From Streptomyces sp. P3 (GTDB taxonomy: Bacteria; Actinomycetota; Actinomycetes; Streptomycetales; Streptomycetaceae), in NCBI RefSeq assembly GCF_003032475.1, contig NZ_CP028369.1:6200001-6264000 (forward strand): a stretch of 64,000 nucleotides of DNA, written 5' to 3'. The notes beneath the pieces were generated by a model. The model saw only the letters and a list, made by a program, of their open reading frames with translations. It searched no databases and was not told the origin of the DNA. The translations under genes were made by a program, and so were the position numbers. Positions 35,212-61,740 of the stretch are shown here, piece by piece (the first letter of the stretch is position 1; each line of letters opens with the position of its first letter).

Positions 35212-35281
35212 TTGACAGGAGATCGGGATGACGCTTTCTTGGTGTCGTTGCATATAGCGGCACTGTTGTGTAGTGCACAAC
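35212..35281 (+). promoter_or_regulatory. Promoter with tandem palindromes before the formate-dehydrogenase-like gene
   Basis: TTGACA at 35212-35217, then a weak palindrome GTTGCATATAGCGGCAC (35247-35263) and a perfect one, GTTGTG-TAGTG-CACAAC (35265-35281). This is the island-wide operator type; here the spacing is 18 rather than 19. Confidence 0.6.
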
Positions 35282-35375
35282 AACATGAAGTCTGTGTCGA
35301 CGGCTGTGCACGAGAGCCGGGACATCCGGCGACGGAACGGCCCTGATTTCCCTACCACCCGGAGTGGCGCTTCAG

Positions 35376-37691
35376 ATGACTCGCAACGCACCTGTCGACG
35401 ATCCCGGGGACGCCCGGCTGCGGGTCGGCCCTCCCAAGGAATACGCCGCCGGCCTCCCCGCGGTCACCTCCTCGCTCCGGCACGCCGGCGAGCAGATGGG
35501 AGCCCGCCGGAGCCTGCTCACCCTCCTGCGGGTCAACCAGAAGGAAGGCTTCGACTGCCCCGGCTGCGCCTGGCCCGAGCCGGAGCACCGGCACCGGGCG
35601 GAATTCTGCGAGAACGGCGCCAAGGCGGTGGCCGAGGAGGCCACCGTGCGCCGGGTCACCCCGGACTTCTTCGCCGCGCACACTCTGGAGGACCTGCTGC
35701 CCGCCGGCGACTACTGGCTCGGCCAGCAGGGCCGTCTGACGCACCCCATGTACCGCACGGCCGGCGACGACCGCTACCGGCCGATCTCCTGGGACGACGC
35801 GTTCGCCGTGATCGCCCGGGAACTCGCCGCCCTCGACCACCCGGGCCAGGCCGCCTTCTACACCTCCGGCCGGGCGAGCAACGAGGCCGCGTTCCTGTAC
35901 CAGTTGTTCGTCCGGATGCTCGGCACCAACAACCTGCCGGACTGCTCCAACATGTGCCACGAGTCCAGCGGATCGGCACTGACGGAGACCATCGGGATCG
36001 GCAAGGGCAGCGTCACCCTGGACGATCTCCACGACGCCGACCTCATCCTCGTGGTCGGTCAGAACCCCGGTACCAACCACCCCCGGATGCTCTCCTCGCT
36101 GGAGACGGCCAAACGCCGGGGCGCCCGGATCATCGCGGTCAACCCGCTTCCCGAGGCGGGGCTGCTGCGGTTCAAGAACCCCCAGCGGCCGTCCGGCGTC
36201 CTCGGCGGCGGCACCCGCCTGGCGGACCTGTTCCTCCAGGTCAGACTGGGCGGGGACCAGGCGCTGTTCCAGGCCTTCAACCGTATGCTGCTGGAGGCGG
36301 AGGACGAGGCCCCCGGTTCCTGCCTGGACATGCCCTTCATCGACCGGTACACACACGGTTTCCAGGAGTTCGCCGAGCACGCCCGCCAGGTGTCGTGGGA
36401 CGAGGTCCTGACGGCCACCGGCCTGCCCGAGGAGGAGATCCGGGCGGCGTTCCGCGAGGTGCTGGCCGCCGAGAAGATCGTCGTCTGCTGGGCGATGGGC
36501 CTGACCCAGCACCGACACTCGGTGCCCACCATCCGGGACGTCGTCAACTTCCTCCTGCTGCGCGGCAACATCGGCCGCCCCGGCGCCGGCCTCTGCCCGG
36601 TACGCGGCCACTCCAACGTGCAGGGCGACCGCACCATGGGCATCTACGAGAAGCCGGACGACGCGTTCCTGGACGCGCTCGGCGCCGAGTTCGCGTTCAC
36701 GCCCCCGAGGCGGCACGGCCATGACGCGGTCGAGAGCATCCGGGCCATGCGTGACGGAGACGTACGGGTCTTCGTCGCGCTCGGCGGCAACTTCGTGGCC
36801 GCCGCCCCCGACACCGACCTCACCGAGCGGGCTCTGCGCAACTGCCGCCTCACCGTGCAGATCTCCACCAAGCTCAACCGCTCGCACGTCATCGCCGGGG
36901 AACAGGCGCTCATCCTCCCCTGCCTCGGCCGGACCGAGGCCGACCTGCGGCCCACCGGGCCCCAACTGGTCACCGTCGAGGACTCCATGGGCATGGTGCA
37001 CCTCTCCCGAGGGCGACTCGCCCCCGCGTCCGACCACCTGTTGAGCGAGGTCGCGATCGTCTGCCGGATCGCACGGGCCGCGCTGGGGGAAGCGGGCTCC
37101 CACGTGCCCTGGCAGGAGTTCGAGAAGGACTACGACCGTATTCGCGACCGCATCGCCCGCGTGATCCCCGGCTTCCAGGACTTCAACCAGCGGGTACGAG
37201 CGCCGGGCGGCTTCGCGCTGCCCCACCCGCCGCGCGACGAACGCCGCTTCACCACCGCCACGGGGCTGGCCAACTTCACCGCCAACCCGCTGGAGCGGCC
37301 CCACGTGCCGCCGGGCCGCCTGCTGCTCCAGACACTCCGCTCCCACGACCAGTACAACACCACCGTCTACGGCCTGGACGATCGCTACCGCGGTATCCAC
37401 CAGGGCCGCCGTGTCCTCTTCGTGCACCCCGGCGACCTCGCCGACCGGGGCCTGGCCGACGGGGACCTGGTCGACATCGTCAGCGAGTACGACGACGGGG
37501 TGGAACGCAGGGCGCCGGCCTTCCGCGTGGTGCCCTACCCGACACCCCGCGACTGCTGCGCCGCATACTTCCCCGAGACCAACGTCCTGGTTCCTCTGGA
37601 CTCCACGGCGGCGATCAGCAACACCCCCACCTCGAAGTCGATCGTCGTCCGCCTGGAACCGGTCCCCGCCGACCCGTCCACGGGGATCTGA
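35376..37691 (+). CDS. Molybdopterin oxidoreductase, FdhF/YdeP family (formate dehydrogenase-like)
   Basis: A 771-residue Mo-bisPGD enzyme. An N-terminal iron-sulfur motif uses C61, C64 and C78 (FDCPGCAW and FCENGAKA). The molybdenum-domain motif NMCHESSGSAL supplies a Cys where formate dehydrogenases carry Sec or Cys. Cofactor-binding stretches (GQNPGTNHPRM, RGHSNVQGDRTMG) and the C-terminal barrel (HPGDLADRGLADGDLV) follow. In this island it would oxidise formate, from formaldehyde or formyl-THF released during betaine demethylation, to CO2; that assignment rests on context. ATG 35376 is chosen over GTG 35364, which overlaps the GGAG ribosome-binding site. Confidence 0.82.
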   Translation: MTRNAPVDDPGDARLRVGPPKEYAAGLPAVTSSLRHAGEQMGARRSLLTLLRVNQKEGFDCPGCAWPEPEHRHRAEFCENGAKAVAEEATVRRVTPDFFAAHTLEDLLPAGDYWLGQQGRLTHPMYRTAGDDRYRPISWDDAFAVIARELAALDHPGQAAFYTSGRASNEAAFLYQLFVRMLGTNNLPDCSNMCHESSGSALTETIGIGKGSVTLDDLHDADLILVVGQNPGTNHPRMLSSLETAKRRGARIIAVNPLPEAGLLRFKNPQRPSGVLGGGTRLADLFLQVRLGGDQALFQAFNRMLLEAEDEAPGSCLDMPFIDRYTHGFQEFAEHARQVSWDEVLTATGLPEEEIRAAFREVLAAEKIVVCWAMGLTQHRHSVPTIRDVVNFLLLRGNIGRPGAGLCPVRGHSNVQGDRTMGIYEKPDDAFLDALGAEFAFTPPRRHGHDAVESIRAMRDGDVRVFVALGGNFVAAAPDTDLTERALRNCRLTVQISTKLNRSHVIAGEQALILPCLGRTEADLRPTGPQLVTVEDSMGMVHLSRGRLAPASDHLLSEVAIVCRIARAALGEAGSHVPWQEFEKDYDRIRDRIARVIPGFQDFNQRVRAPGGFALPHPPRDERRFTTATGLANFTANPLERPHVPPGRLLLQTLRSHDQYNTTVYGLDDRYRGIHQGRRVLFVHPGDLADRGLADGDLVDIVSEYDDGVERRAPAFRVVPYPTPRDCCAAYFPETNVLVPLDSTAAISNTPTSKSIVVRLEPVPADPSTGI

Positions 37692-37930
37692 GGTCCGACG
37701 AGGAGAACAGGGGGCCTCCTCGCCCCGCAGGTCTGTCGGCCCCTTCGGCGGTCCGGTCCTCCCCCACACCCGGGGGTGCGACCGGCGACCGGCGATCCCG
37801 CGGCCCTGCAATCCGCCGGGCTCCGGGCCGTCGTCGCCGACTTCGAGGGCCGTCCGGTCCGCGCGCGCCCGGGGGCGTGAGCCGTACCGTCCGTGCCCGC
37901 CCTCCGTCCGGACACGCGCCACGGACCGGG

Positions 37931-38026
37931 TCGCGCGAGTGGACCTCCTCGCTCGAGCGGGACGTCCACACCGAGAACGTCATGATCGTGGACCTGGTCC
38001 GCAACGACCCGGGAGCGTCCGCGTAA
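37931..38026 (+). pseudogene. Fragment of a PabB/TrpE-type chorismate-binding enzyme
   Basis: The plus frame reads DVHTENVMIVDLVRND and then stops at TAA 38024. ENxMIVDLxRND is the signature of the chorismate-binding domain in p-aminobenzoate and anthranilate synthases. Only about 30 codons remain, without a start, so it is a relic. Confidence 0.4.
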
Positions 38027-38375
38027 CCGGCACCGGGCCTCGGTGACGGTCGCCCCCGTTGTCGACGCCTCTCCCTTCCTGCCAGGTCGCGCGACCGTCG
38101 CCCGCGGCGGAGCGTCCACCGCTGTCCGTGGGATGAACCATCGCGGTCCGTGTCTTCCGCCGTCCCGGAGCGGCGGACCCGCCAGCCCGGCGGGCCGTGG
38201 CACCGCCCTGTGCGGCCACGGCCCGCCGGGCTTTCGCGTCCGCCTCCGGGATCATGCGCCTGCCCTCGCCCCGCGGTCGCGGCGAGCCGGCGAGGCGGGC
38301 TTCTTCGTTGTTCTATGTGAGTCGAGTTGTGAATGTCGCAACGCTCCATGGGACTCGAAGGGGCCCCTGAATGCC

Positions 38376-38443
38376 TTGACAAGGGTTCTGGGCGACTCCA
38401 GACTGATGTTGCGCTTACCGCAAACCGTTTCGTTATACGCACC
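38376..38443 (+). promoter_or_regulatory. Promoter with tandem palindromes before the Rieske ferredoxin gene
   Basis: TTGACA (38376-38381) and CAGACT 17 bases later. Then GTTGCG-CTTAC-CGCAAA (38408-38424) and GTTTCG-TTATA-CGCACC (38427-38443), start-to-start 19 bp. The second ends 10 bases before the ATG. Confidence 0.7.
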
Positions 38444-38452
38444 CGAGGTGTC

Positions 38453-38815
38453 ATGATGATTCCCGCGTGCCGTCTCGCGGATCTCCCGCGAGGTGAGGCC
38501 TTCCGGCTCGACGTCGACCCGCCGGTGTCGGTGTTCCACACCGACGACGGCGAGGTCTTCGCCATCGACGACACCTGCACCCACCAGGACGCCTCGCTCG
38601 CCGACGGCTGGCTGGAGGGCTGCGAGGTGGAATGCCCTCTGCATGCCTCCAAGTTCGACCTGCGCACCGGCGCGGTGGACTCCCCGCCGGCGAAGCTGCC
38701 GGTCCGGACGCACGAGGTCGTCGTCGAGGACGGCGTGATCTACGTCCGGCTCTCCACCGAGGCGCCCAACCTGCCGCCCTGCATCTCCGCCCGCCTCGCC
38801 GGCGGTCCCGCGTGA
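38453..38815 (+). CDS. Rieske-type [2Fe-2S] ferredoxin
   Basis: A 120-residue small ferredoxin of the non-haem oxygenase type. Its cluster ligands are Cys-x-His in DTCTHQDASLADG and Cys-x2-His in ECPLHASKFDL. It should carry electrons from the reductase encoded next (four-base overlap, GTGA) to the Rieske oxygenases of the island. ATG 38453 or the adjacent 38456 can start it; GAGG fits the latter slightly better. The upstream in-frame ATG at 38333 would add 40 residues translated through the operator and is rejected. Confidence 0.9.
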   Translation: MMIPACRLADLPRGEAFRLDVDPPVSVFHTDDGEVFAIDDTCTHQDASLADGWLEGCEVECPLHASKFDLRTGAVDSPPAKLPVRTHEVVVEDGVIYVRLSTEAPNLPPCISARLAGGPA

Positions 38816-39975
38816 GGACGGTCGCCGTGGTCGGCGCCTCCCTCGCCGGCCTGTCGGCGGCGCGCTCCCTGCGCAAGCAGGGCTTCGACGGACGCCTGGT
38901 CGTCATCGGGGACGAGCTGCACCGCCCCTACGACAGGCCCCCGCTGTCCAAGGAGTTCCTGTCCGGCACCCTCGGCGAGGCCGAACTCGCCCTGGAGGCG
39001 GAGGGCGAGGACCTGGCGGCGGAGTGGTTGCTCGGCGTCCGCGCCACCGGCCTCGACCACACCGCGCGCTCCGTCCGTCTCGCCGACGGACGTGAGGTGT
39101 GCGCCGACGGCTTCGTCATCGCCACCGGCGCCGTGGCGCGCGCCCTGCCGGGCTCCGTGGGCCTTGCCGGAGTGCACACCCTGCGCACCCTTGACGACGC
39201 CCGCGCCCTTCGGGACGAACTGGCCGGCGGCGGACGCCTGGTGGTGATCGGCGGCGGATTCATCGGCGCCGAGGTCGCCTCCACCGCGTATGCCCTCGGT
39301 CTCGACGTGACCGTCGTGGAAGCGGCCCCGACCCCGCTCGCCGGGCCGCTGGGCGCCACCATGGGCGCCATCGTCTCCGGCCTCCACGCCGACCACGGTG
39401 TGCGGCTGTTGTGCGGCACGGGCGTCAAGGGACTGAGCGGGGAGCACCGGGTCGACGCCGTCCTGCTGGAGGACGGCCGAAGCGTCCCCGCCGACATCGT
39501 CGTCGTCGGAGTCGGAGCCCTCCCGTGTGTCGAGTGGCTGGCGGGTTCCGGCATCGCCCTCGACAACGGCGTGAAGTGCGGCGCGGACGGCCGTACCAGC
39601 CTGGCCGGGGTGGTCGCGGTCGGCGACTGCGCGAACTGGTACGACCCCCGGGCCGGCCACCATCGCCGGGTGGAGCACTGGACCGGCGCGCGCGAGCGTC
39701 CGGAGGCCGCCGTCGCCACCCTGCTCGCGGGGGGCGCGGTCGAACCCGGCGTTCCCCGGCCGCCGTACTTCTGGTCGGACCAGTACGGGGTCCGCATCCA
39801 GTTCGCCGGCCACGCGGCCGAAGCCGACAGCATCACCGTCGAGGCGGGCGCGGCGGACGACCGCGACGTCCTCGCCGTCTACCGGCGTGCCGGGCGGCCG
39901 GTCGCGGTGCTCGGCATGAACCAGCCGCGGCTGTTCATGCGGGCGCGCAAACAGCTGGCCGCCGGCACATCTTGA
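38812..39975 (+). CDS. FAD-dependent ferredoxin reductase (glutathione-reductase type), copy 1
   Basis: A 387-residue flavoprotein of the BphA4/rhodocoxin-reductase class. FAD motif [17 protein letters not shown] at the N-terminus, [16 protein letters not shown]-binding motif [16 protein letters not shown] near residue 145, the second FAD motif VAVGDCANWY, and the C-terminal [17 protein letters not shown]. It is translationally coupled to the ferredoxin gene, giving an NAD(P)H-reductase-ferredoxin chain. The cluster thus uses separate reductase and ferredoxin components, unlike the fused reductase of the Pseudomonas betaine monooxygenase. Confidence 0.9.
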   Translation: MRTVAVVGASLAGLSAARSLRKQGFDGRLVVIGDELHRPYDRPPLSKEFLSGTLGEAELALEAEGEDLAAEWLLGVRATGLDHTARSVRLADGREVCADGFVIATGAVARALPGSVGLAGVHTLRTLDDARALRDELAGGGRLVVIGGGFIGAEVASTAYALGLDVTVVEAAPTPLAGPLGATMGAIVSGLHADHGVRLLCGTGVKGLSGEHRVDAVLLEDGRSVPADIVVVGVGALPCVEWLAGSGIALDNGVKCGADGRTSLAGVVAVGDCANWYDPRAGHHRRVEHWTGARERPEAAVATLLAGGAVEPGVPRPPYFWSDQYGVRIQFAGHAAEADSITVEAGAADDRDVLAVYRRAGRPVAVLGMNQPRLFMRARKQLAAGTS

Positions 39976-40039
39976 CAGCACCCCGGCGCCACCCCATGCT
40001 GCGGTTGCCCACAGCGCGCAGTGTTGCTCCATGTACAAC
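39972..40039 (+). promoter_or_regulatory. Promoter with tandem palindromes before Rieske oxygenase 1
   Basis: TTGACA at 39972-39977 (overlapping the end of the reductase gene). Then GTTGCC-CACAG-CGCGCA (40004-40020) and GTTGCT-CCATG-TACAAC (40023-40039), again 19 bp apart. Confidence 0.62.
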
Positions 40040-40105
40040 GCCGTTCGGAGTCGTTCCTCCCGGCGTCCGAATGACCCCTCCGCGATGTTCACCGAGGAGT
40101 GACCC

Positions 40106-41236
40106 GTGACCTCGAACGGCCTGCCCGACAGCCTGATCGCCACTCTTCCCGGCTCCGCCTACACCGATCCCGGGGTCTTCGCCCAGGAACAGGAGCGCAT
40201 CTTCGAGACGATGTGGTTCTGCGTCGCCCGGGCTTCCGAGCTGGCGAAGCCGGGCGCGTTCCGCACCGTCGACGTCGGCCGGGAGAGCATCCTGGTCACC
40301 CGGGCCCGGGACCACTCGATCCGCGCGTACTTCAACGTCTGCCGGCATCGCGGGGCCAAGCTCTGCACCGAGGAGTCGGGCGAGGTCAAGCGGTCCTTCC
40401 AGTGTCCCTACCACGCCTGGACGTACGGCCTGGACGGCAAGCTGGTCGCCGCGCCGAACCTGACCAAGATGCCCGACGTCGGCCGCACCGAGTACGGCCT
40501 GGTGAGTGTCGCCGTGCGGGAATGGCTCGGCTACGTCTGGGTGTGCCTCGCCGAGAACCCGCCGTCCTTCGAGGAGGACGTCATCGGTGAGGTCGTGGCC
40601 CGCCTGGGCGACGTCGAGTCGATCGAGCGGTACGACATCGGCAACCTGTCGGTCGGGCGTCGGATCACCTATGACGTGAAGGCGAACTGGAAGCTCGTCA
40701 TCGAGAACTTCATGGAGTGCTACCACTGCGCGACGATCCATCCGGAGCTGACGGAGGTGCTGCCGGAGTTCGCGGACGGGTACGCCGCGCAGTACTACGT
40801 GGGTCACGGCGCGGAGTTCGGTGAGGAGGTCCAGGGGTTCACCGTGGACGGCTCCGAGGGTCTGGACCGTATCCCGGGTGTCGCCGAGGAGCAGGACCGC
40901 CGTTACTACGCGATCACCGTGCGGCCGCAGGTGTTCATCAATCTCGTTCCCGACCATGTGATCCTCCACCGGATGTACCCGGTGGCGGTCGACCGCACGG
41001 TCGTCGAGTGCGACTGGCTGTATCTCCCGCACGTCGTGGAGAGCGGCAAGGACGTCAGCCGGTCCGTGGAGCTCTTCGACCGGGTGAACCGGCAGGACTT
41101 CGACGCCTGTGAGCGCACCCAGCCCGGGATGAGCTCGCGGATGTACGCCAAGGGCGGCGTGCTGGTGCCCAGCGAGCACCACATCGGCGCCTTCCACGAC
41201 TGGGTGAACGACCGCCTCGGCACTCCTCAGGGGTGA
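40106..41236 (+). CDS. Rieske oxygenase alpha subunit, glycine betaine demethylase-like, copy 1
   Basis: A 376-residue oxygenase like GbcA. The Rieske centre is Cys-x-His in [11 protein letters not shown] and Cys-x2-His in FQCPYHAW. The mononuclear iron site is in [15 protein letters not shown], with two His, and a further Asp is expected toward the C-terminus. It would hydroxylate one N-methyl of glycine betaine to give dimethylglycine and formaldehyde. GTG at 40106 has GAGGAG upstream. The last 594 bp of the gene are almost identical to the second copy at 60407. The substrate assignment rests on family and context; related enzymes also act on stachydrine or carnitine. Confidence 0.87.
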
Positions 41237-41237
41237 A

Positions 41238-42035
41238 TCAGCCCAGGAATCCCATGCGGTGGCTGATCTCGGCGGCGCCCTTGACCAGCACCGGGGACAG
41301 TTCGTGCAGCCGCTCCTCGGTGAGCCGGTAGGAGGGCCCGGAGGCGCTGAGAGCGGCGATGACCTCGCCGTCCCGGTTGCGGACCGGCGCGGCCATGGCG
41401 TGCAGACCGATCTCCAGCTCCTCCAGGGTGAAGGCGTAACCCTGCTCCCGGGCGGTGACGAGGTTCTTCTCGAGCTTCGTCTTCGCGGTGATGGTGTGCG
41501 GGGTGACCTTCTTCATGCCCGTGGTCGCCAGCAGCGTGGCGCGCTCCTGCGCCGACAGGTGGGCCAGCAGGATCTTTCCGCTCGACGTGGCGTGCAGGGG
41601 AGTCAACTGACCCACCCAGTTGTGCGCGGTGACCGCCCCCGGTCCGCGCACCTGGTACAGGTTGATCGCGTACTGCTCCTGCATCACGGCGATGTTGACG
41701 GTCTCGCCGATCTCCTCGGCCAGACGCTCGCACACGGGACGGCTCTGCTGCGTGATGTCGATACGGCCCGTGACCGCGCCGGCCAGGCGCACGATGCCGA
41801 AACCGAGCCGGTACTTGCCGCGCTCGCCGGCCTGCTCGACCAGGCCGCGCGCTTCCAGGGCGCCGAGGAGACGGAAGGCCGTGGACTTGTGCACCTCGAT
41901 CTCGGCCGCCACCTCGCTGACACCCGCTTCGCCGCGCTGCGCGAGGATCTCCAGGACGCTGATGGCGCGGTCGACCGACTGCACCCCGCCCGCGGGCGCG
42001 TTCGACGTTTCTGTGTCAAGGCTGTAGTTGCTCAC
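41238..42035 (-). CDS. IclR-family regulator, probable repressor of the betaine island
   Basis: A 265-residue IclR protein. The winged HTH occupies residues about 18-80 ([40 protein letters not shown]), and the effector domain runs from about 90 to 260 with the usual [13 protein letters not shown] stretch. The start is GTG at 42035. No ribosome-binding site is visible, and TATAGT lies about six bases before the GTG, so the transcript may be leaderless. Tandem palindromes cover the start codon, so it is probably self-repressed. It is convergent with Rieske oxygenase 1 and divergent from the choline dehydrogenase. A small amine of the pathway is the likely ligand. Confidence 0.9.
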
Positions 42036-42062
42036 AGTGCAACTATACGCGCAGTAAACAAC
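42027..42062 (-). promoter_or_regulatory. Tandem palindromes over the IclR-gene start
   Basis: GTTGCT-CACAG-TGCAAC (42027-42043) includes the GTG start codon. A weaker partner TACGCG-CAGTA-AACAAC (42046-42062) lies 19 bp away. This position fits autorepression. Confidence 0.65.
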
Positions 42063-42100
42063 ACGACTGCAAGTAACCGCCCTGGAGCGAAGTTCCATAA

Positions 42101-42136
42101 GTTGCGCGGTTCGCAACCTGGTGCGTATAGCGCGAC
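42101..42136 (+). promoter_or_regulatory. Tandem palindromes before the choline dehydrogenase gene
   Basis: A perfect GTTGCG-CGGTT-CGCAAC (42101-42117) followed after 19 bp by GGTGCG-TATAG-CGCGAC (42120-42136). It is the best example of the operator unit in the window. No TTGACA box is seen here. Confidence 0.75.
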
Positions 42137-42185
42137 CGGGTCTAGCATGCCACGCATATCTACGGCGCGAGTGAGACGAGGCACC

Positions 42186-43856
42186 ATGGATCCTGTGCAG
42201 TACGACTTCGTGATCGTCGGTGGTGGTTCTGCGGGCAGTGCACTGGCAAACAGGCTGTCCGCCGACCCTGCGAACCGGGTTCTGGTCCTGGAAGCGGGCC
42301 GGTCGGACTTCCCGTGGGACGTCTTCATCCACATGCCGGCGGCGCTGACCTATCCGATCGGCAGCCGGTTCTACGACTGGAAGTACGAGTCCGAGCCCGA
42401 GCCCCACATGGGCGGGCGGCGTGTCTACCACGCGCGCGGCAAGGTGCTGGGCGGGTCCAGCAGCATCAACGGCATGATCTTCCAGCGCGGCAATCCCATG
42501 GACTACGAGCGCTGGGCCGCCGACCCGGGGATGGAGGCCTGGGACTACGCGCACTGCCTGCCCTACTTCCGGCGCATGGAGAACTGCCTCGCGGCGGACC
42601 CCGACGACGAGTTCCGCGGCCACGACGGCCCTCTCGTCCTGGAGCGCGGCCCCGCCTCCAACCCGCTCTTCGGCGCCTTCCTCAAGGCAACCGAGGAAGC
42701 CGGCTACGCCCCCACCGACGACGTCAACGGCTACCGCCAGGAGGGCTTCGCCAAGTTCGACCGCAACGTCCACCGCGGACGCCGGCTCTCCGCCTCGAAG
42801 GCGTATCTGAAGCCCGTCCGCAAGCGCCCCAACCTCACGGTCACCACCCGCGCTCTCGTCACCCGGGTCCTCTTCGAGGGCAAGAAGGCGGTCGGCGTCG
42901 AGTACCGGCGAGGCAAGGGAGCCGCGAAGCAGGTCCGCGCGAAGGAGGTCATCCTCTGCGGCGGTGCGATCAACTCGCCCCAGCTGCTCCAGCTCTCCGG
43001 TGTCGGCAACGCCGGGGAACTGAGGGCGCTCGGCATCGACGTCGTCCACGACCTCCCGGGCGTCGGCGAGAACCTGCAGGACCACCTGGAGGTCTACATC
43101 CAGTACGCATGTGAGAAGCCCGTCTCCATGCAGCCGTACCTGGCGAAGTGGCGGGCGCCCTTCATCGGGCTCCAGTGGCTGTTCCGCAAGGGCCCGGCCG
43201 CCACCAACCACTTCGAGGCGGGCGGGTTCGCCCGCAGCAACGAGGAGGTGGACTACCCCAACCTGATGTTCCACTTCCTGCCGATCGCGGTCCGTTACGA
43301 CGGTTCGGTGCCGGCCGGCGGCCACGGCTATCAGGTGCACGTGGGACCCATGTACTCCGACGCCATCGGCTCGGTGAAGATCAAGAGCAAGGATCCGAGG
43401 GAGCACCCCGCCCTTCGCTTCAACTACCTCTCCACGGAGCAGGACCGCCGCGAGTGGGTCGAGGCGATCCGGGTGGCCCGCAAACTCCTCAACCAGCCCG
43501 CGCTCGCCCCCTACAACGGTGGGGAGATCTCTCCCGGACCGTCCGTCGAGTCGGACGAGGAGATCCTCGCCTGGGTCGCCAGGGACGGCGAGACCGCTCT
43601 GCACCCCTCCTGCACCTGCAAGATGGGCACCGACGAGATGTCCGTCGTGGACCCCACCAGCATGCGCGTGCACGGCCTGGAGGGTCTGCGGGTGGTGGAC
43701 GCCTCGGTCATGCCGTACGTCACCAACGGCAACATCTACGCCCCCGTCATGATGATCGCCGAGAAGGCCGCCGACCTGATCCTCGGCAAGAAGCCGCCGA
43801 CGCCGTCGAGGGCCGCGTACTACCGCCACCGCGACGCGCAGAAGCAGGCGGGGTAG
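42186..43856 (+). CDS. betA: GMC oxidoreductase, choline dehydrogenase-like
   Basis: A 556-residue FAD enzyme. The dinucleotide motif is [19 protein letters not shown], the GMC signature [16 protein letters not shown] follows, and the second signature [15 protein letters not shown] comes later. The C-terminal catalytic block includes [19 protein letters not shown] and VTNGNIYAP. It should oxidise choline to betaine aldehyde; GMC enzymes vary in substrate, so another amino alcohol is possible. ATG at 42186 has GACGAGG upstream. The next gene starts four bases after its stop, forming an operon. Confidence 0.85.
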
Positions 43857-43859
43857 ACG

Positions 43860-44696: not shown

Positions 44697-44829
44697 GCAC
44701 ACCGCTCCTGCGCCGTTTCGTGCCGGACGCGGAAGTCCGGACGGGCTCTCCGCCCGCCCCGCGTTCCGCACCCGTACGTCACGTACTCATGGCCAGGTTG
44801 CGGCCGAGGGGACGTGGGCGGCCTCGGCC

Positions 44830-44865
44830 GCTTCGTAATACACAACATGATGAGCGATACGCAAC
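44830..44865 (+). promoter_or_regulatory. Tandem palindromes, distal unit before the importer operon
   Basis: GCTTCG-TAATA-CACAAC (44830-44846) and GATGAG-CGATA-CGCAAC (44849-44865), 19 bp apart. The right half-sites fit the consensus well, the left ones poorly. Confidence 0.5.
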
Positions 44866-44943
44866 ATGGCCGCTTCGGTGTCACCTGCGGCCAAGGGTGG
44901 GCGGGCAAGTGGCCGCATGCTCAAATCGTCATACGTCAATGTC

Positions 44944-45006
44944 TTGACGTCCGTCTGGCCAGCCGACAGTGTTCCATCACAAGCAATCAGGTGCACGATG
45001 CGCAAC
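44944..45006 (+). promoter_or_regulatory. Promoter with tandem palindromes before the importer operon
   Basis: TTGACG (44944-44949), then GTTCCA-TCACA-AGCAAT (44971-44987) and GGTGCA-CGATG-CGCAAC (44990-45006), 19 bp apart and ending 25 bases before the GTG. Confidence 0.6.
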
Positions 45007-45031
45007 GAATGTCATTCGGAAGGCTCGGGGC

Positions 45032-46514
<1,483 letters not shown>

Positions 46515-46515
<1 letters not shown>

Positions 46516-48533: not shown

Positions 48534-48546
48534 GGAGCAACTGACC

Positions 48547-49657: not shown

Positions 49658-52203
<2,546 letters not shown>

Positions 52204-52240
52204 CACCCGGCCACGACCGAAGAGGGAAGGAACACCGCCG

Positions 52241-53101
52241 GTGAACGCACAACTGCTCGACGGCAAGGCCACCGCCGCCGACATCCGCCGCGAACTCACG
52301 GAGCGCGTGGCCAAGTTGACCGCCATCGGCGGCCGCCCGCCGGGCCTCGGCACCGTTCTGGTCGGCGACGACCCCGGCAGCCGTGCCTATGTCGGCGGCA
52401 AGCACCGCGACTGCGCCCAGGTCGGCATCGCCTCCATCCGCCGCGACCTGCCCGCCGACGCCACCCAGCAGCAGGTCGAGGACGTCATCGACGAGCTGAA
52501 CGCCGACCCGGCCTGCACCGGCTACATCGTCCAGCTCCCGCTGCCACGCCACCTCGACGCCAACGCCGTACTGGAACGCATGGACCCGGCCAAGGACGCC
52601 GACGGACTGCACCCGGTCAACCTCGGCCGGCTCACCCTCGGCGTCGACGCACCGCTGCCGTGCACCCCGCGCGGCATCGTCGAACTCCTCCGCCGCCACG
52701 ACGTGCCGCTCGCCGGCGCCCGGGTCTGCGTGGTCGGCCGGGGCATCACGGTCGGCCGCCCCATCGGCCTGCTGCTCACCCGTCGCTCCGAGAACGCCAC
52801 CGTGACCCTGTGCCACACCGGCACCAGGGGTCTGGCCTGGCACACCCGCGAGGCCGACATCGTCATCGCGGCGGCCGGGTCACCCGGACTGATCACCAAG
52901 GACATGCTGCGCACCGGCGCGGCCGTCCTGGACGTCGGCATCACCCGCACCGACCAGGGCCTGATCGGCGACATCCACCCGGACGCCGCCCAGGTCGCCG
53001 GCTGGATCGCGCCGATGCCCGGTGGAGTGGGCCCCATGACCCGCGCGATGTTGCTGGCCAACGTCGTCGAGGCCGCCGAGAGGAACGCCACCGCCGTATG
53101 A
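52241..53101 (+). CDS. folD: Methylene-THF dehydrogenase/cyclohydrolase
   Basis: A 286-residue bifunctional enzyme that oxidises 5,10-methylene-THF to 10-formyl-THF with NADP. The catalytic Lys is in YVGGKHRDC, the folate region is [10 protein letters not shown], the NADP motif [11 protein letters not shown], and the C-terminal [11 protein letters not shown] is present. The start is GTG 52241 with AGAGGGAAGG upstream. It is a pathway-specific copy; most genomes have another housekeeping folD. It would handle the methylene-THF made by its two neighbours. Confidence 0.92.
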
Positions 53102-53159: not shown

Positions 53160-54392
53160 ATGAGCCCCCGCACCCCAGGCGCAGACCTCCCCGAGCACCC
53201 CGACTGGCTGTGGCGTGACCCCGAGCCCGCGAAGTCGTACGACGTAGTGATCGTCGGCGGCGGCGGACACGGTCTGGCCACGGCCCACTACCTGGCGAGG
53301 AACCACGGCATCACCAATGTCGCGGTGCTGGAGAAGGGGTGGCTCGGCGGCGGCAACATGGCCCGCAACACCACGATCATCCGCTCCAACTACCTGTGGG
53401 ACGATAGCGCGGGCATCTACGAGCACGCCCTCAAGCTCTGGGAGGGACTGGAGGAGGAGCTCGACTACCCGATCCTCTTCTCCCAGCGCGGTGTGCTGAA
53501 CCTCGCGCACAGCCTCCAGGACGTCCGCGACAGCGTGCGGCGCGTGGAGGCCAACCGCCTCAACGGCGTGGACGCGGAGTGGCTCGACGCCGACCGCGTC
53601 AAGGAAGTCTGCCCGATCGTCAACATCTCGCAGGACGTGCGCTACCCGGTCCTCGGCGCGACCTACCAGCCGCGCGCGGGCATCGCCAAGCACGACCACG
53701 TGGCCTGGGGCCTGGCCCGCTCCGCCGACGCGGCCGGCATCGACATCATCCAGAACTGCGAGGTCACCGGCCTCGACGTCGTCGACAACCGGGTCGTCGG
53801 CGTCCGGACGACACGGGGCCGCATCGCGGCCGGCAAGGTCGCGCTCTGCTCGGCAGGGCACACCTCGGTCCTCGCCGCCATGGCGGGCATCCAACTCCCC
53901 GTCCAGTCCCACCCGCTGCAGGCCCTGGTCTCCGAGCTCCTCGAGCCCGTGCACCCCACGGTCGTCATGTCCAACGCCGTCCATGTGTACGTCAGCCAGG
54001 CGCACAAGGGCGAGCTGGTGATGGGCGCGGGCATCGACGCGTACAACTCGTACACCCAGCGCGGCGCCTTCCACATCATCGAGGAGCAGATGGCCGCGGC
54101 CCTGGAGCTGTTCCCGGTCTTCGCGCGCGCGCACGTCCTGCGCACCTGGGGAGGCATCGTCGACGTCAGTCCCGACGCGTCGCCGATCATGGGGCTCAGT
54201 CCCGTCGACAACCTCTATCTCAACTGCGGCTGGGGAACGGGCGGTTTCAAGGCCACCCCGGGCGTCGGCTGGGTCTACGCCCACACCATCGCCCACGACA
54301 CCCCGCACGCCCTCAACGCCCCCTTCTCGCTCGACCGTTTCACCACCGGCGCGCTCGTCGACGAGCACGGCGCGGCCGCGGTGGCCCACTAG
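53160..54392 (+). CDS. soxB: Sarcosine oxidase beta subunit
   Basis: A 410-residue flavoprotein. The FAD motif is [20 protein letters not shown], and the KHDHVAW stretch near residue 178 holds the His to which FMN is covalently bound in characterised Sox[19 protein letters not shown] and [12 protein letters not shown] are typical of the family. It oxidises sarcosine to glycine together with the alpha, delta and gamma subunits. It is followed after 11 bases by the fused soxDA gene. Confidence 0.93.
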
Positions 54393-54403
54393 GGAGCCCA
54401 ACC

Positions 54404-57400: not shown

Positions 57401-57634
57401 ACCCACCTGGTCGCCGACGGCGAACTGCCGGCTCCGCCCGTGCCGATGCTCGGCCACGTCACCTCCAGTTACCGCAGCGCCGCTCTCGGCCGCACCTTCG
57501 CGCTCGCCCTGATCAAGGGCGGCCGGGACCGCATCGGCGAGCGGCTCTACGCCCCCGTGGGCGACCGGCTGGTCCCCGTGACCGTCGCCAGCCCCGTCCT
57601 CTACGACCCCGAGGGAGCCCGCCGCGATGGCTGA
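54404..57634 (+). CDS. soxDA: Fused sarcosine oxidase delta-alpha subunit
   Basis: A 1076-residue open frame. Residues 1-85 are SoxD, with its zinc motif C6-P-W-C9 and SHAAGC63RRWF. Residues about 97-137 are encoded by a Streptomyces intergenic repeat. From about residue 140 to the end is SoxA: start-like TQPFRHPTRGRIDRGTLLTF, an NAD-binding motif LLVVGAGPAGLAAAAAA, then a C-terminal GcvT-like folate domain (from about 660). Normally soxD and soxA are separate, each about 95 and 950 residues. No ATG or GTG in frame lies near the usual soxA start, so SoxA can only be made as a fusion unless a frame-internal GTG upstream (54646) is used. AGGGAG precedes the ATG. Confidence 0.85.
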   Translation: MLLIPCPWCGPRDEAEFHYGGQAHVAYPETPSALTDEEWARYLFFRDNTKGPFAERWSHAAGCRRWFNAVRDTSTNEILSVYRSGEERPPTPEPRPASPASPAFEDEALQAEEGSGGATPGSGVEGAQPLQDGTGGATQPFRHPTRGRIDRGTLLTFTFDGTEYQGHRGDTLASALLANGVIQAGTSIKLGRPRGIFSAGVEEPNAVIQIVEPFPEPMLPATTVELYDGLVATSLPGQGRLATEPDPARYDAVHAHCDLLVVGAGPAGLAAAAAAANSGARVILADDQPEPGGSLLGTAEHLDWVGETADLLEAAPEVRVLRRTTVFGYYDDNHLLAVERRTNHLGGAAPGNVSRERVWRIRARRVVLATGAHERSLAFADNDRPGVMLASSARTHVNRHGSLPGRHAVVFTTNDSAYAAALDLASAGLAVTAIVDTRPEPGEWAERARAAGIEVLAGHAVTGTEGEARLTAVTVAPYGESAGQREFAADLLLVSGGWNPVAHLFSQSGGKLRHDETLGSFVPDTGRQAVEVVGAASGLLDPAAVLAQGAAAGARAIEAEGYTPEERRLPAVPPQPRSTPPMHVYVVPGESDAPRFVDLQRDVTVSDLARATGAGLRSVEHTKRYTTAGTANDQGKTSGVLASGAVAELLGVDVSALGTTTFRPPYTPVSFAALAGRDRGVLSDPVRTTALHEWHVGHGALFENVGQWKRPWYYPRDGEDMETAVLRECAATREGVGFMDASTLGKIDVQGPDAGVFLDLLYTNMMSTLKVGMIRYGVMCRPDGMVFDDGTVIRVDRNRYLVTTTTGNAAAVLDWMEEWLQTEWPELKVHCTSVTEQWATVALVGPSSRDVLGALAPGLAVANEDFPFMAWRETTVAGIEARVCRISFSGELAYEINVSPWEALALWEALYEAGAPYGITPYGTETMHVLRAEKGYPIIGQDTDGTVTPQDLGMSWAVSKKKPDFIGKRSFARADTVRPDRKHLVGLLPEDPAAFLPEGTHLVADGELPAPPVPMLGHVTSSYRSAALGRTFALALIKGGRDRIGERLYAPVGDRLVPVTVASPVLYDPEGARRDG
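54692..54815 (+). repeat. Streptomyces interspersed repeat inside the sox fusion gene
   Basis: The DNA between the SoxD and SoxA parts reads CCAGTCCGGCGTTTGAGGAC, GAGGCCCTTCAGG and so on. This resembles the dispersed repeat often found between genes in Streptomyces. It contains a perfect hairpin TCCGGGGG-CGCAA-CCCCCGGA (54746-54766). It is read in frame as an acidic, Gly/Ala/Pro-rich linker. Confidence 0.7.
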
Positions 57635-58229
57635 CACCGCCCCGACCTCCCGGCCCCGCAGTCCGCTGGCCGGGGCCGCCGACCGGCTGGCCGCCGCCAC
57701 CCGTACCTCCGGTGGCGCGATCCGGCTGGCCGAACTGCCCTTCCTCACCCAGCTCGACGTGCGTCTCGACGCGAAGGGGGCGGCGGCGGACGCCGTCGGC
57801 CTCGCGCTGGGCCTCACGCTGCCACTGGAACCCGACACCGTCGTCCGCGCGGGGGAGTCGACCGCGCTGTGGCTCGGCCCCGACGAGTGGCTGCTCGTGG
57901 GGCCGCCGGGCCGGGAGCGCGAACTGGAGAGCCGGATCCGGGAGGCCGCGGGAGAGGAGCCGGTCTCGGTCACCGACGTCTCCGCGCAGCGCACCACCGT
58001 CCTCGTCGCCGGCGCGCGAGCCCGTGACCTGCTGGCCCACGGCTGCTCGCTGGACCTGCATCCGAGGGCCTTCGGTTCCGGCCGCTGTGCCCAGACCACC
58101 CTGGGCCGCACCCAGGTCGTCCTGGTCGCGCGTGAGGAGCCCAGCGCCGGTTTCTGGATCCTGGTCCGTTCGTCGTTCGCCGGGTATCTGGCGGACTGGC
58201 TGCTGGACGCGGCGACGGAGTACGTCTGA
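57627..58229 (+). CDS. soxG: Sarcosine oxidase gamma subunit
   Basis: A 200-residue protein with the SoxG pattern: IRLAELPFLTQLDVRLD, LWLGPDEWLLVG, VSVTDVSAQRTTVLVAG, and FWILVRSSFAGYLADWLLDA. It starts eight bases before the soxDA stop. It completes the heterotetrameric-type enzyme, of which only the subunit number is altered here by the delta-alpha fusion. Confidence 0.9.
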   Translation: MADTAPTSRPRSPLAGAADRLAAATRTSGGAIRLAELPFLTQLDVRLDAKGAAADAVGLALGLTLPLEPDTVVRAGESTALWLGPDEWLLVGPPGRERELESRIREAAGEEPVSVTDVSAQRTTVLVAGARARDLLAHGCSLDLHPRAFGSGRCAQTTLGRTQVVLVAREEPSAGFWILVRSSFAGYLADWLLDAATEYV

Positions 58230-58361: not shown

Positions 58362-59285
58362 GTGATCGTCACGGCCCCCGCCACCGGCAGATCCTCGCGT
58401 CCGGGAACGCCGGACCTGTACCCGCACGGCCTTCCACGTCCGGGCAGGACGCTGGTCATGGGCGTCGTGAACGTCACGCCGGACTCGTTCTCCGACGGCG
58501 GGCTGTCGTTCGCCGAGCACGCCGCCGTGGCGCACGGGCTCGCCCTGCTGGAGCAGGGGGCGGACATCGTGGACGTCGGCGGTGAGTCGACCCGCCCCGG
58601 CGCGCTGCGCCCACCGGTCGAGGAGGAGCTGCGACGGGTGCTGCCCGTCGTCCGGCACCTCGCGGCGGCGGGCGCGGTCGTCAGTGTCGACACCATGCGG
58701 GCCGAGGTCGCCGCCCGCGCCCTGGAGGCGGGCGCACGGCTGGTCAACGACGTCTCAGGGGGCCTCGCCGATCCCGGGATGCTGCCCCTGATGGCGCGGT
58801 CGGGGGTGCCGTACGTGCTGATGCACTGGCGTGGCCACTCCGCCGCCATGCAGGAGAACGCCGTCTACGACGACGTGGTCGACGAGGTGCTCGGCGAAGT
58901 GCGGCTGCGGATCGACGCCGCCCTGGAGGCGGGTGTCCCGCCCGGATCGATGATCGTCGATCCCGGGCTGGGCTTCGCCAAGCAGCCCGAACACAACTGG
59001 GAGCTGCTGGGCCGTCTCGGCGAGGTCCGCGCGCTGGGCCGCCCCGTCCTGCTGGGCGCGTCCCGCAAGGCGTTCCTGGGGCGGCTGCTCGCCGACCGGA
59101 CGACCGGGGAACCGCGCCCGGCGCGCGAGCGTGACGCCGCGACCACCGCCGTGTCCGTGCTCGCGGCCGCACAGGGCGTCTGGTGCCTGCGCGTGCACGA
59201 CGTCGCCTCCACGCTGGACGCGGTGCGGGTGACGGCCCGTTGGGGCGCGGAGACGGCGGTGTCTGCGCGGCTGCCTCTGGGCTGA
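58362..59285 (+). CDS. folP: Dihydropteroate synthase
   Basis: A 307-residue TIM-barrel enzyme of folate synthesis that joins p-aminobenzoate to the pterin. All family motifs are present: GVVNVTPDSFSDGG, VGGESTRPGA, LVNDVSGG, VLMHWRG, DPGLGFAK and LLGASRKAFLG. The start is GTG 58362. Streptomyces usually carry a folP in the folate operon, so this one is probably an extra copy tied to the THF demand of the demethylases. Loop 2 and the sulfonamide-contact loops look ordinary. Confidence 0.9.
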   Translation: MIVTAPATGRSSRPGTPDLYPHGLPRPGRTLVMGVVNVTPDSFSDGGLSFAEHAAVAHGLALLEQGADIVDVGGESTRPGALRPPVEEELRRVLPVVRHLAAAGAVVSVDTMRAEVAARALEAGARLVNDVSGGLADPGMLPLMARSGVPYVLMHWRGHSAAMQENAVYDDVVDEVLGEVRLRIDAALEAGVPPGSMIVDPGLGFAKQPEHNWELLGRLGEVRALGRPVLLGASRKAFLGRLLADRTTGEPRPARERDAATTAVSVLAAAQGVWCLRVHDVASTLDAVRVTARWGAETAVSARLPLG

Positions 59286-59315
59286 CCGCTCTTCGCGGAA
59301 GGTCAGCCCCGGACA

Positions 59316-59611
59316 GCCCATCCTGCGGGTGATCTCCTCGGCGCCCCGTGTCAGCACGGGCACGAGTTCGCGCATGCGCTCCTCGGTGAAGCGGTAGGCC
59401 GAGCCGGAGGCGCTGCCTTCTCCGGCTTCGGCCCGGCGGCGAGGGTGCGGGGTCGGCTTCCGCAGCCCGGACGCCTCCAGCACCTCGGAGCGCCGCCGCT
59501 GCGACAGGTGGGCCAGCAGGGCTTGGCGGCTGGACGTGGCGTGCACGGGGGTGAGCCGGCCGCCCTGGTTGTGGGTGCCGACCGCGCCCGGTCCGCGTAC
59601 CCGGTGGAGCA
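59316..59611 (-). pseudogene. Decayed second IclR-family regulator
   Basis: The minus frame reads VRGPGAVGTHNQGGRLTPVH, ATSSRQALLAHLSQRRRSEV, and later SAYRFTEERMRELVPVLTRG, AEEITRRMG. These parallel the effector domain of the intact regulator ([20 protein letters not shown], and [16 protein letters not shown]). About 60 residues are missing between the two blocks, and the HTH is absent. It lies beside Rieske oxygenase 2, just as the intact gene lies beside oxygenase 1 (though here on its 5' side), so it is a relic of a duplicated locus. Confidence 0.75.
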
Positions 59612-59750
59612 GTCCTGCCCGAAGGTCCCGAGGTGTTCGCGGTGCGTGTGCCCTGGCCGGAACCGGTCGCCCGCATGGTCGCGCGGTCCCTCCTGTCCGG
59701 CGAAGGGGGCGGCGTCGAGGGGGTACGGGCAAGTCGGCGCGGCCGACCTC

Positions 59751-59824
59751 TTGACAGTGGGTGTCCCCGAGGAGACAGTTTGGTCGTCGTTGCTCATGGC
59801 GAAAGCAGTTGCGCTATATAGAAC
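59751..59824 (+). promoter_or_regulatory. Promoter with tandem palindromes before the second Rieske locus
   Basis: TTGACA (59751-59756) with GACAGT 17 bases on. Then GTTGCT-CATGG-CGAAAG (59789-59805) and GTTGCG-CTATA-TAGAAC (59808-59824), 19 bp apart. Confidence 0.6.
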
Positions 59825-60100
59825 ACGATGAACGACTGTGGTTCGGCCGCGGTCCCCGTCCGGGCCCCGGTGGAGACACTCCTCCCCTCCCTCGCCGACA
59901 GCTCCGGGGAGCGATCGGCGTCCTCCCGCCATCCAGCACATCCGGCCGAAGCACGAATTCGGCCCCCCTCTACGAGGAGATCGACCGTGACGCACGAGGT
60001 GAGCGCCGTCGGCGCCGACGTGTCCGGGCGCGGCGGCGCGGTGAGGTCCTCCTGTCACGGCGCCTGCCTGCCCTCGACGTCCCCGCCCCGATCGGCCTCC

Positions 60101-60361
60101 CGCATCGAGCGCCTCGTCACCTCCGGTCGCTCGCCCGGCGCGGTCTGCCTCCACGTGAACGCGCTGGTCTCCGCAGAGACCCTCCTCCGGGGGCCCGGAC
60201 CCGCCGGCCGCTCCTTCCCGGGCTTCGGCGCCGTCGTCGCCTCCGTCCGGGACCTCCCGCTGACGCTCCCCGCCGGCACCACCGTCCCGACCGGCCACGG
60301 CGAGACCGCCCCGATCGGGGCCGAGGCGCCCCGCCTCGACGAGTGGATCGCCCGCGGCCAC
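60101..60361 (+). pseudogene. MBL-fold hydrolase, internally deleted remnant
   Basis: The frame reads RIERLVTSGRS, the usual start of Streptomyces MBL-fold hydrolases. It then jumps to ALVSAETLLRGPGPAGRSFP and ends PTGHGETAPIGAEAPRLDEW-IARGH, the usual C-terminal part. The metal-binding HxHxDH block between them is deleted. In many actinobacteria this gene follows the S-(hydroxymethyl)mycothiol dehydrogenase, so it may be debris of a formaldehyde-detoxification operon. It is in frame with the following oxygenase gene. Confidence 0.6.
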
Positions 60362-60406
60362 CGAACGCCCGCCACCGCATCACGAATTCCCCGCGAAGGT
60401 GACTCG

Positions 60407-61540
60407 ATGACCCTCAACCATCTGCCGCCCAGCCTCATCCCCACGCTGCCCGGCGAGTACTACACGGACCCCGAAGTCTTCGCCCAGGAGCAGGAACGGG
60501 TCTTCGAGACCATGTGGTTCTGCGTGACCCGCGCCTCCGAGCTGGCGAAACCCGGCGCCTTCCGTACCTACCAGGTCGGACGGGAGAGCGTCCTCGTCGC
60601 CCGCTCCCGGGACGGGTCGGTCAAGGCCTTCCTCAACATCTGCCGGCACCGCGGGGCCAAGCTCTGCACCGAGGAGTCGGGCGAGGTCAAGCGGGCCTTC
60701 CAGTGTCCGTACCACGCCTGGACGTACGGCCTGGACGGCAAGCTGGTCGCCGCGCCGAACCTGACCTCGATGCCGGACATCGACCGGACCGAGTACGGCC
60801 TGGTCGGCGTCCATGTGCGGGAGTGGCTCGGCTATGTGTGGGTGTGCCTCGCCGACGAGCCGCCGTCCTTCGAGGAGGACGTGCTGGGCGCGGTCGTCGA
60901 GCGGCTCGGCGACGTCGAGTCGATCGAGCGGTACGACATCGGCAACCTGTCGGTCGGGTGTCGGATCACCTATGACGTGAAGGCGAACTGGAAGCTCGTC
61001 ATCGAGAACTTCATGGAGTGCTACCACTGCGCGACGATCCATCCGGAGCTGACGGAGGTGCTGCCGGAGTTCGCGGACGGGTACGCCGCGCAGTACTACG
61101 TGGGTCACGGCGCGGAGTTCGGTGAGGAGGTCCAGGGGTTCACCGTGGACGGCTCCGAGGGTCTGGACCGTATCCCGGGTGTCGCCGAGGAGCAGGACCG
61201 CCGTTACTACGCGATCACCGTGCGGCCGCAGGTGTTCATCAATCTCGTTCCCGACCATGTGATCCTCCACCGGATGTACCCGGTGGCGGTCGACCGCACG
61301 GTCGTCGAGTGCGACTGGCTGTATCTCCCGCATGTCGTGGAGAGCGGCAAGGACGTCAGCCGGTCCGTGGAGCTCTTCGACCGGGTGAACCGGCAGGACT
61401 TCGACGCCTGTGAACGCACCCAGCCCGGGATGAGCTCGCGGATGTACGCCAAGGGCGGCGTGCTGGTGCCCAGCGAGCACCACATCGGCGCCTTCCACGA
61501 CTGGCTCCAGACCAAGCTCGGTGCAGGGCCCGCGCACTGA
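60407..61540 (+). CDS. Rieske oxygenase alpha subunit, glycine betaine demethylase-like, copy 2
   Basis: A 377-residue paralogue of the protein at 40106. The Rieske motifs ([19 protein letters not shown]) and mononuclear iron motif ([14 protein letters not shown]) are intact. The N-terminal 165 residues differ at about 35 positions, while the rest is nearly identical at DNA level; one change in the shared part replaces Arg by Cys (GRRITYD to GCRITYD). ATG 60407 with GAAGG upstream is chosen; the open frame extends upstream through the MBL-fold remnant, but that part is not oxygenase. It probably shares the ferredoxin of copy 1. Confidence 0.87.
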   Translation: MTLNHLPPSLIPTLPGEYYTDPEVFAQEQERVFETMWFCVTRASELAKPGAFRTYQVGRESVLVARSRDGSVKAFLNICRHRGAKLCTEESGEVKRAFQCPYHAWTYGLDGKLVAAPNLTSMPDIDRTEYGLVGVHVREWLGYVWVCLADEPPSFEEDVLGAVVERLGDVESIERYDIGNLSVGCRITYDVKANWKLVIENFMECYHCATIHPELTEVLPEFADGYAAQYYVGHGAEFGEEVQGFTVDGSEGLDRIPGVAEEQDRRYYAITVRPQVFINLVPDHVILHRMYPVAVDRTVVECDWLYLPHVVESGKDVSRSVELFDRVNRQDFDACERTQPGMSSRMYAKGGVLVPSEHHIGAFHDWLQTKLGAGPAH

Positions 61541-61564
61541 CCTGGTCCCGCCCTTCTTCCGACC

Positions 61565-61608
61565 CCCCGTCCACCTGCCGCTCCGGCCCCCTCGGCAGGC
61601 GGGCGGGG
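61565..61608 (+). terminator. Terminator after Rieske oxygenase 2
   Basis: A hairpin with 16-base arms (61565-61580 and 61593-61608), one mismatch and one G-T pair, 12-base loop, 25 bases after the stop. Confidence 0.65.
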
Positions 61609-61621
61609 TGCAGACGGAATC

Positions 61622-61657
61622 GTTGCGATCGACGCAACCCGGAGCGTGATCGGGAAC
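61622..61657 (+). promoter_or_regulatory. Tandem palindromes, distal unit before reductase 2
   Basis: A perfect GTTGCG-ATCGA-CGCAAC (61622-61638) and a weak partner GGAGCG-TGATC-GGGAAC (61641-61657), 19 bp apart. Confidence 0.65.
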
Positions 61658-61675
61658 GATCGGCGGTCCGCCCTC

Positions 61676-61740
61676 TTGACACGCCCGAATTCCACCTAAA
61701 CCATGTTGCGCATAACGCGAATCGTTGTGCCATGTGAGAC
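61676..61740 (+). promoter_or_regulatory. Promoter with tandem palindromes before reductase 2 and glyA
   Basis: TTGACA (61676-61681). Then GTTGCG-CATAA-CGCGAA (61705-61721) and GTTGTG-CCATG-TGAGAC (61724-61740), 19 bp apart, ending 22 bases before the ATG. Confidence 0.68.

Follow-up and report, generated by a model that had tools for sequence, protein, structure and literature searches.

A 36-bp tandem element recurs in front of the choline and betaine catabolic genes of Streptomyces sp. P3, and comparisons of its sequence and distribution make it very likely that it serves as operator for the IclR-family protein at 41238–42035 and for the close paralogues of this protein, through which transcription of the pathway would be blocked. 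The DNA analysed, a stretch of 64,000 nucleotides referred to here as the window, spans 6.200–6.264 Mb of the 9.85-Mb single-contig genome, and contains at 35–63 kb an island of genes for choline dehydrogenase, a betaine-type ABC importer, dimethylglycine and sarcosine breakdown, and folate enzymes (Table 1). The element is made up of two 17-bp dyads with the consensus GTTGCG-N5-CGCAAC, their starts 19 bp apart. The element itself, its confinement to pathway genes, its co-occurrence with the regulator gene and its position at promoters were established by computation. One switch seems to run choline and betaine breakdown in Streptomyces and some related actinomycetes, which provides a candidate master regulator for this catabolism, links importers, demethylation enzymes and formaldehyde disposal through a single site, and yields a site model for inferring regulons from sequence.

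All 11 of the pairs claimed in an earlier note on this DNA were found, ten at 19-bp spacing and one (35247/35265) at 18 bp, and an additional pair was identified upstream at 38307. Individual palindromes of the window pairs matched 7–12 of the 12 arm bases. Single palindromes with up to three mismatches were no more frequent in the window than expected (54 versus 57.3) and were dropped as evidence, so that the case rests on the 19-bp pair. At this spacing, 13 pairs in the window had at least 17 of 24 matches, compared with 0–5 for any other spacing between 10 and 40 bp. A matrix was built from the ten 19-bp window pairs, which scored 19.8–33.3 bits when each was left out in turn; a first-order Markov simulation of 10 Mb yielded only two positions with 20 bits or more. 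The earlier note had made its proposal depend on the spacing being exceptional, and 19 bp is clearly commoner than other spacings, with simulated DNA nearly free of matches. The 18-bp pair at 35247 has a likely orthologous site before the same gene in a relative (G007, L042:76), where the spacing is 19 bp and the score 34.9 bits.

It could be argued that the palindromes are products of chance or functionless leftovers of duplicated promoter regions, since the window has no excess of single palindromes, three sites at a second locus on the chromosome arm are near-copies of window sites, and erosion has affected two units that follow window operators (the aldehyde dehydrogenase and the unit behind 59789). 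Given the enrichment of pairs, the leave-one-out scores, the retention of the dyads across genera and families and the tight TTGAC offset described below, we find this scarcely credible.

When up to three mismatches were allowed, the pair pattern occurred at six places across the whole genome, five of them in the window, and the backwards control at none; with 24-bp spacing it was seen twice, each time outside the window, compared with eight places for its control. A sequence-only model, for which 150 of 911 first-look candidates were scored, listed 15 genome places at E-values up to 10. Fourteen of these are in choline/betaine contexts; 11 are training sites, and three of the other four fit the pathway. 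By location, ten lie in the window, three at the chromosome-arm locus and one before a phosphorylcholine phosphatase homologue, and one is weak; the pairs at 35247 and 38307 were missed by this 19-bp model. The arm locus carries an IclR paralogue (87% identity), an intact betaine aldehyde dehydrogenase gene and a second OpuA importer. Non-training matches stand at the start of an IclR paralogue (9618219), before an aldehyde dehydrogenase gene (9619503) and, distant from the island, directly before the phosphatase homologue (C1:8929299, L071), whose product matches PDB 4as2 at 478 bits. The weak match at 9303543 (E 1.67; position weight matrix score 13.2), with no pathway gene recognised among the listed open reading frames, was taken as chance. 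The matrix added an operator-like pair at the arm locus (C1:9615329, L037:8329; 22.0 bits) before a gene for S-(hydroxymethyl)mycothiol dehydrogenase (TIGR03451, above cutoff). A gene for a metallo-beta-lactamase-fold protein is also found behind this site, and the unit probably serves formaldehyde disposal.

The scan of genome and relatives that the earlier note had proposed as a check placed the sites mostly at choline/betaine genes, in company with IclR orthologues. Orthologues were called at E up to 1e-60 and the element at E up to 0.5, in samples of 200 genomes from the genus and 296 from the class, both of which include the P3 genome that was the source of the model. In the genus sample, gene and site were both present in 99 genomes and both absent in 88; eight had the gene alone and five the site alone. 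For the same-genus part of the class sample, a site was found in 16/16 genomes with the gene versus 0/15 without, and outside the genus in 26/39 versus 21/226. Three gene-bearing regions outside the genus (L165–L167), from genomes called site-less, do hold sites, the best at 23.6, 30.4 and 26.0 bits, and part of such misses are therefore threshold losses, stricter filters dropping weak matches. Together with 11 regions from genomes with model matches they make up 14 regions around orthologues outside the genus, all of which have a matrix site of at least 17 bits. The genes near these sites vary, and include those for dimethylglycine dehydrogenase, monooxygenase, aldehyde or choline dehydrogenase, importer, BCCT transporter, sarcosine oxidase and mycothiol dehydrogenase. 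Among 13 regions around orthologues of 49–60% identity, 11 have a site of at least 19 bits; L062 and L063 (49–50%) have none at that score. In other genera and families, sites adjoin or share a cluster with IclR orthologues of 45–60% identity.

The arrangement was resolved further in 80 named loci, kept as the best among 577 confirmed relatives (78 Streptomyces and two Actinacidiphila; IclR identity 82–96%). The locus is also carried by the laboratory strain Streptomyces viridochromogenes DSM 40736 (L129). In the 80 named loci a site lies at the IclR start in 80/80. Of their 534 sites, 509 stand no more than 300 bp 5' of a catalogued pathway gene, and among the 25 exceptions 22 are no more than 800 bp from the end of the fetched stretch. 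Counted over loci having the gene, a site precedes ferredoxin in 74/75, choline dehydrogenase in 66/68, aldehyde dehydrogenase in 62/65, mycothiol dehydrogenase in 57/62, dimethylglycine dehydrogenase in 29/30, BCCT in 9/14 and dihydropteroate synthase in 6/9. The element of relatives thus extends to mycothiol-dependent formaldehyde dehydrogenase and BCCT transporter genes. In these loci no site was found before the importer genes (0/66, 0/62, 0/59), the second ferredoxin reductase (0/75), the hydrolase following mycothiol dehydrogenase (0/56), FolD (0/2), SoxA (0/1) or SoxB (0/1); most site-less genes look like later members of operons.

Another regulator encoded elsewhere in the genome, for example of the TetR, GntR or AraC family, might bind the element, with the IclR gene merely adjoining it. 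GntR/FadR sites can resemble TTG-N-CAA dyads, and five of the 93 genus genomes that have no IclR orthologue do have a site; yet the co-occurrence with the IclR gene, the 80/80 sites at IclR starts and the match to the IclR motif class make such a regulator quite improbable. The earlier note's assignment of the operator to the IclR protein is supported by the same co-occurrence and start sites, by the sites beside 45–60% orthologues and by the published tandem-site architecture, binding itself being predicted.

That architecture is the GTT-11-AAC class of IclR sites, a 17-bp palindrome for which tandem sites 18–22 nt apart are predicted in 94 orthologous groups and explained by tetramers (Suvorova and Gelfand 2021, PMC8222616). 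In 96 distinct sites picked with the window matrix and read in both orientations, the outer ends are G (96%), T (91%) and T (91%), and the window spacings of 19 bp (10/11 pairs) and 18 bp (one pair) fall within the published range. Compared with the YCRY arm interior of the class, position 5 is C in 89%, position 6 a purine in 70% and position 7 a pyrimidine in 90%; position 4, where a pyrimidine is expected, is G in 76%. The suggestion that two adjacent dyads serve a dimer of dimers thus agrees with published IclR tandem sites, while losing its novelty as a known trait of the family.

The element holds a fixed place at promoters. Among 442 distinct sites of at least 20 bits, TTGAC begins 29–33 bp before the element in 254, compared with 0–4 cases at any other offset, and it never occurs on both sides of a site. 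In aligned classes read by eye, a CAnnnT-like hexamer follows 17–18 nt after the -35 box and ends 0–3 bp short of the element's first G, so transcription would start within the first dyad. The TTGACA or TTGACG that the earlier note had seen before seven units was confirmed at each (Table 1), and the conserved offset supports its view that the pair covers the expected start as a repressor site would. A scan of 35000–45100 for consensus sigma-70 promoters returned none at threshold (0.3 expected), the -10 box read here being CAnnnT and not TATAAT. The GTG start codon of the IclR gene is covered by its own element which, with the position over the expected start, gives the picture expected of an autoregulated repressor.

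An IclR-type repressor very probably binds at the repeated 36-base tag. We infer that two IclR dimers, forming a tetramer, would occupy both dyads immediately 3' of the -10 box, over the expected start. The bound protein would block the genes for the phosphocholine–choline–betaine–dimethylglycine–sarcosine pathway, for importers and for formaldehyde and formate disposal, as well as its own gene, until a pathway intermediate releases it from the DNA. We judge repression to be the probable mode of action; glycine betaine or dimethylglycine is put forward as effector only tentatively, at somewhat less than an even chance. Glyoxylate was set aside, as the cysteine of E. coli IclR, which we take to be a ligand residue, aligns with a proline here.

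The same operator could instead serve a protein that is mainly an activator, or that activates from distal and represses from proximal elements, in the manner of PobR. PDB relatives of the protein include this activator-named regulator (chain 5hpf), a number of units have another, distal element, and three window pairs (38307, 44830 and 61622) are situated 5' of the -35 box. Neighbouring elements recur at 74–76, 79–84, 98–103 and 141–145 bp, and relatives repeatedly show a pair 101–103 bp ahead of the proximal one, as at 38307. However, the TTGAC offset (254/442) that sets the element over the start, and the element over the regulator's own start codon, both suit repression, and we regard activation as unlikely.

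The proposed repressor has the domains of its family (PF09339, 55.6 bits, cutoff 22; PF01614, 153.1 bits, cutoff 24), and no TetR domain was present among its six Pfam matches. The earlier note had described it as the only regulator of the island, which calls for correction: a second IclR gene at 59307–59609 is decayed, and two further close paralogues (87% and 70%) are encoded in the genome. An intact copy of the second gene, 77% identical to the window protein, persists in the relative G013, so the sole status of the window gene reflects decay. The islands of G013 (L039/L040) and G007 (L042/L043) have two diverged IclR copies about 20 kb apart, which suggests an old duplication of the regulator. 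The 14-residue core of the recognition helix is identical in 13/13 close copies compared, and the arm-locus paralogue should therefore bind the same sites. In eight paralogue pairs, identity was 80–96% in the helix-turn-helix domain versus 64–86% in the effector domain. This difference was rejected as a sign of multi-input paralogues, since two orthologue pairs lean the same way (95% versus 81–85%) and it is no evidence alone. A doubtful but conceivable extension is that a small set of IclR paralogues, with the same recognition helix but effector domains further apart, share one operator as a multi-signal master switch of the whole quaternary-amine route in many Actinomycetes. Its scope would take in phosphocholine hydrolysis, the import of choline and betaine, oxidation, the three demethylation steps, the handling of one-carbon units by folate and the mycothiol-dependent removal of formaldehyde. 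With each paralogue reading another intermediate on the same sites, the set might then decide between keeping betaine as an osmolyte and burning it.

Several observations weigh against assigning the element to this protein and its paralogues. The second dyad of some window pairs is poor, and the weak dyads are those at 42046 (7/12) and at 40004, 44971, 61641 and 61724 (8/12 each). Just four of the seven window TTGAC boxes fall inside the 29–33 bp peak, those at 35247, 44971 and 59789 being at 35, 27 and 38 bp. The sampled genomes are related to one another, and Fisher p-values for the co-occurrence therefore overstate independence; within the genus, eight genomes have the gene with no site at threshold and five the site without the gene, and outside it the corresponding numbers are 13 and 21, three of the latter at E <0.05 (G252, G307 and G326, with genomes of 1.4–2.2 Mb). 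In the named loci a site precedes the first monooxygenase in 34/73 and FdhF in 1/9. The third paralogue (C1:9042665, L038, 70%) has no strong site in the 18-kb stretch covered, the best scoring 11.4 bits. The G at arm position 4 (76%) departs from the pyrimidine of the published subgroup. Likewise, the correlation given in Table 5 of PMC8222616 between His at helix-turn-helix position 27 and G/C at site positions 10/22 does not hold here, where the His is present and the site has T at 91%, with positions matched by eye.

Two units behind operators are eroded in the window. The aldehyde dehydrogenase remnant at 45044–45406 joins the first ∼105 residues to the last 17, and an intact copy at C1:9619705 lies under the same operator pairs. 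In G013, the operator matching 59789 precedes an S-(hydroxymethyl)mycothiol-dehydrogenase-like gene by ∼150 bp; this gene of G013 and G007 had no match in the window, where only a hydrolase remnant is left behind 59789. Elsewhere a metallo-beta-lactamase-fold gene follows mycothiol dehydrogenase, and 60113–60361 is its remnant. Both dehydrogenases are present at the arm locus. The genes for FolD and dihydropteroate synthase adjoin those for sarcosine oxidase, which suggests that one-carbon units are routed to folate. An Rfam scan of 34000–63000 revealed no riboswitch or other RNA family at the gathering score.

Table 1. Operator pairs and genes of the 35–63 kb island, in window coordinates; TTGAC, distance from the start of TTGACA or TTGACG to the element.
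Feature	Position	Strand	Remarks
Pair before FdhF/YdeP-type oxidoreductase	35247..35281	+	18-bp spacing; TTGAC 35 bp
FdhF/YdeP family oxidoreductase	35379..37691	+	TIGR01701, 989 bits; start uncertain
Extra upstream pair	38307..38342	+	23.2 bits; additional to the earlier list
Pair before ferredoxin / ferredoxin reductase	38408..38443	+	TTGAC 32 bp
Rieske-type ferredoxin-like open reading frame	38456..38815	+	type judged by eye from translation
Ferredoxin reductase	38812..39975	+	PF07992 + PF14759
Pair before first glycine-betaine-monooxygenase-like gene	40004..40039	+	TTGAC 32 bp
Rieske oxygenase, glycine-betaine-monooxygenase-like (first)	40106..41236	+	PF00355 + PF00848; best NCBIfam NF058607, 225 bits, below cutoff 670
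IclR-family regulator, proposed operator-binding protein	41238..42035	-	PF09339, PF01614 above Pfam cutoff
Pair over GTG start of IclR gene	42027..42062	-	
Pair before choline dehydrogenase	42101..42136	+	
Choline dehydrogenase	42186..43856	+	TIGR01810, 859 bits, above cutoff
Distal pair, aldehyde dehydrogenase remnant / OpuA unit	44830..44865	+	
Proximal pair, aldehyde dehydrogenase remnant / OpuA unit	44971..45006	+	TTGAC 27 bp
Betaine aldehyde dehydrogenase remnant	45044..45406	+	internal deletion
Glycine betaine/choline-type ABC importer (OpuA)	45430..49527	+	ATPase, permease, binding protein
Pair before dimethylglycine-dehydrogenase-like / sarcosine oxidase operon	49689..49724	+	TTGAC 31 bp
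Dimethylglycine-dehydrogenase-like DAO+GCV_T protein	49765..52203	+	
FolD	52196..53101	+	NF010789, 475 bits, above cutoff
Sarcosine oxidase beta (SoxB)	53160..54392	+	TIGR01373, above cutoff
Sarcosine oxidase gamma (SoxG)	57627..58229	+	PF04268
Dihydropteroate synthase	58362..59285	+	TIGR01496, above cutoff
Decayed second IclR gene	59307..59609	-	tblastn match to residues 125-264 of intact G013 copy
Pair before eroded unit	59789..59824	+	TTGAC 38 bp
Remnant of metallo-beta-lactamase-fold gene	60113..60361	+	54% over 87 residues to L037:9555-10184
Second glycine-betaine-monooxygenase-like gene	60407..61540	+	best NCBIfam NF058607, 230 bits, below cutoff
Distal pair before second ferredoxin reductase	61622..61657	+	
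Proximal pair before second ferredoxin reductase	61705..61740	+	TTGAC 29 bp
Second ferredoxin reductase	61763..62944	+	by resemblance; also matches ferredoxin-reductase genes of relatives

The element is closest to the GTT-11-AAC subgroup, with which it shares GTT/AAC ends, 17-bp dyads and a tandem spacing of 18–22 nt; it differs in serving a choline/betaine pathway, betaine, choline and sarcosine being absent from the main text of that survey, in which the centres of IclR sites peak between -3 and +1 relative to the start of the gene (PMC8222616). TtgV (PDB 2xrn/2xro) is an IclR protein solved with its DNA, and is cited there as the tetramer precedent; unlike the window regulator it controls efflux, and the two are distant in sequence (50.5 bits). 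BhcR of Paracoccus denitrificans, an IclR regulator whose palindromic site lies upstream of a -35 region, controls the beta-hydroxyaspartate cycle, and glyoxylate lowers its DNA binding (PMC11323563). The BhcR model NF045644 is the best NCBIfam match of the window regulator, whose 200.1 bits are nonetheless below the equivalog cutoff of 350. Among regulators with narrower regulons, BetI belongs to the TetR family and GbdR to the AraC family. Both control choline/betaine genes (PMC12442346, PMC3572970); in contrast to BetI, the window regulator has IclR domains and lacks a TetR domain. In literature titles and the beginnings of abstracts, neither IclR control of choline or betaine genes nor a master regulator of this catabolism in Streptomyces and relatives was found among the matches listed, word matching of this kind being weak evidence of absence. 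The GTT-11-AAC class and its tandem sites are already published, so the architecture is known; what looks new is the assignment of an IclR tandem operator to choline and betaine catabolism.

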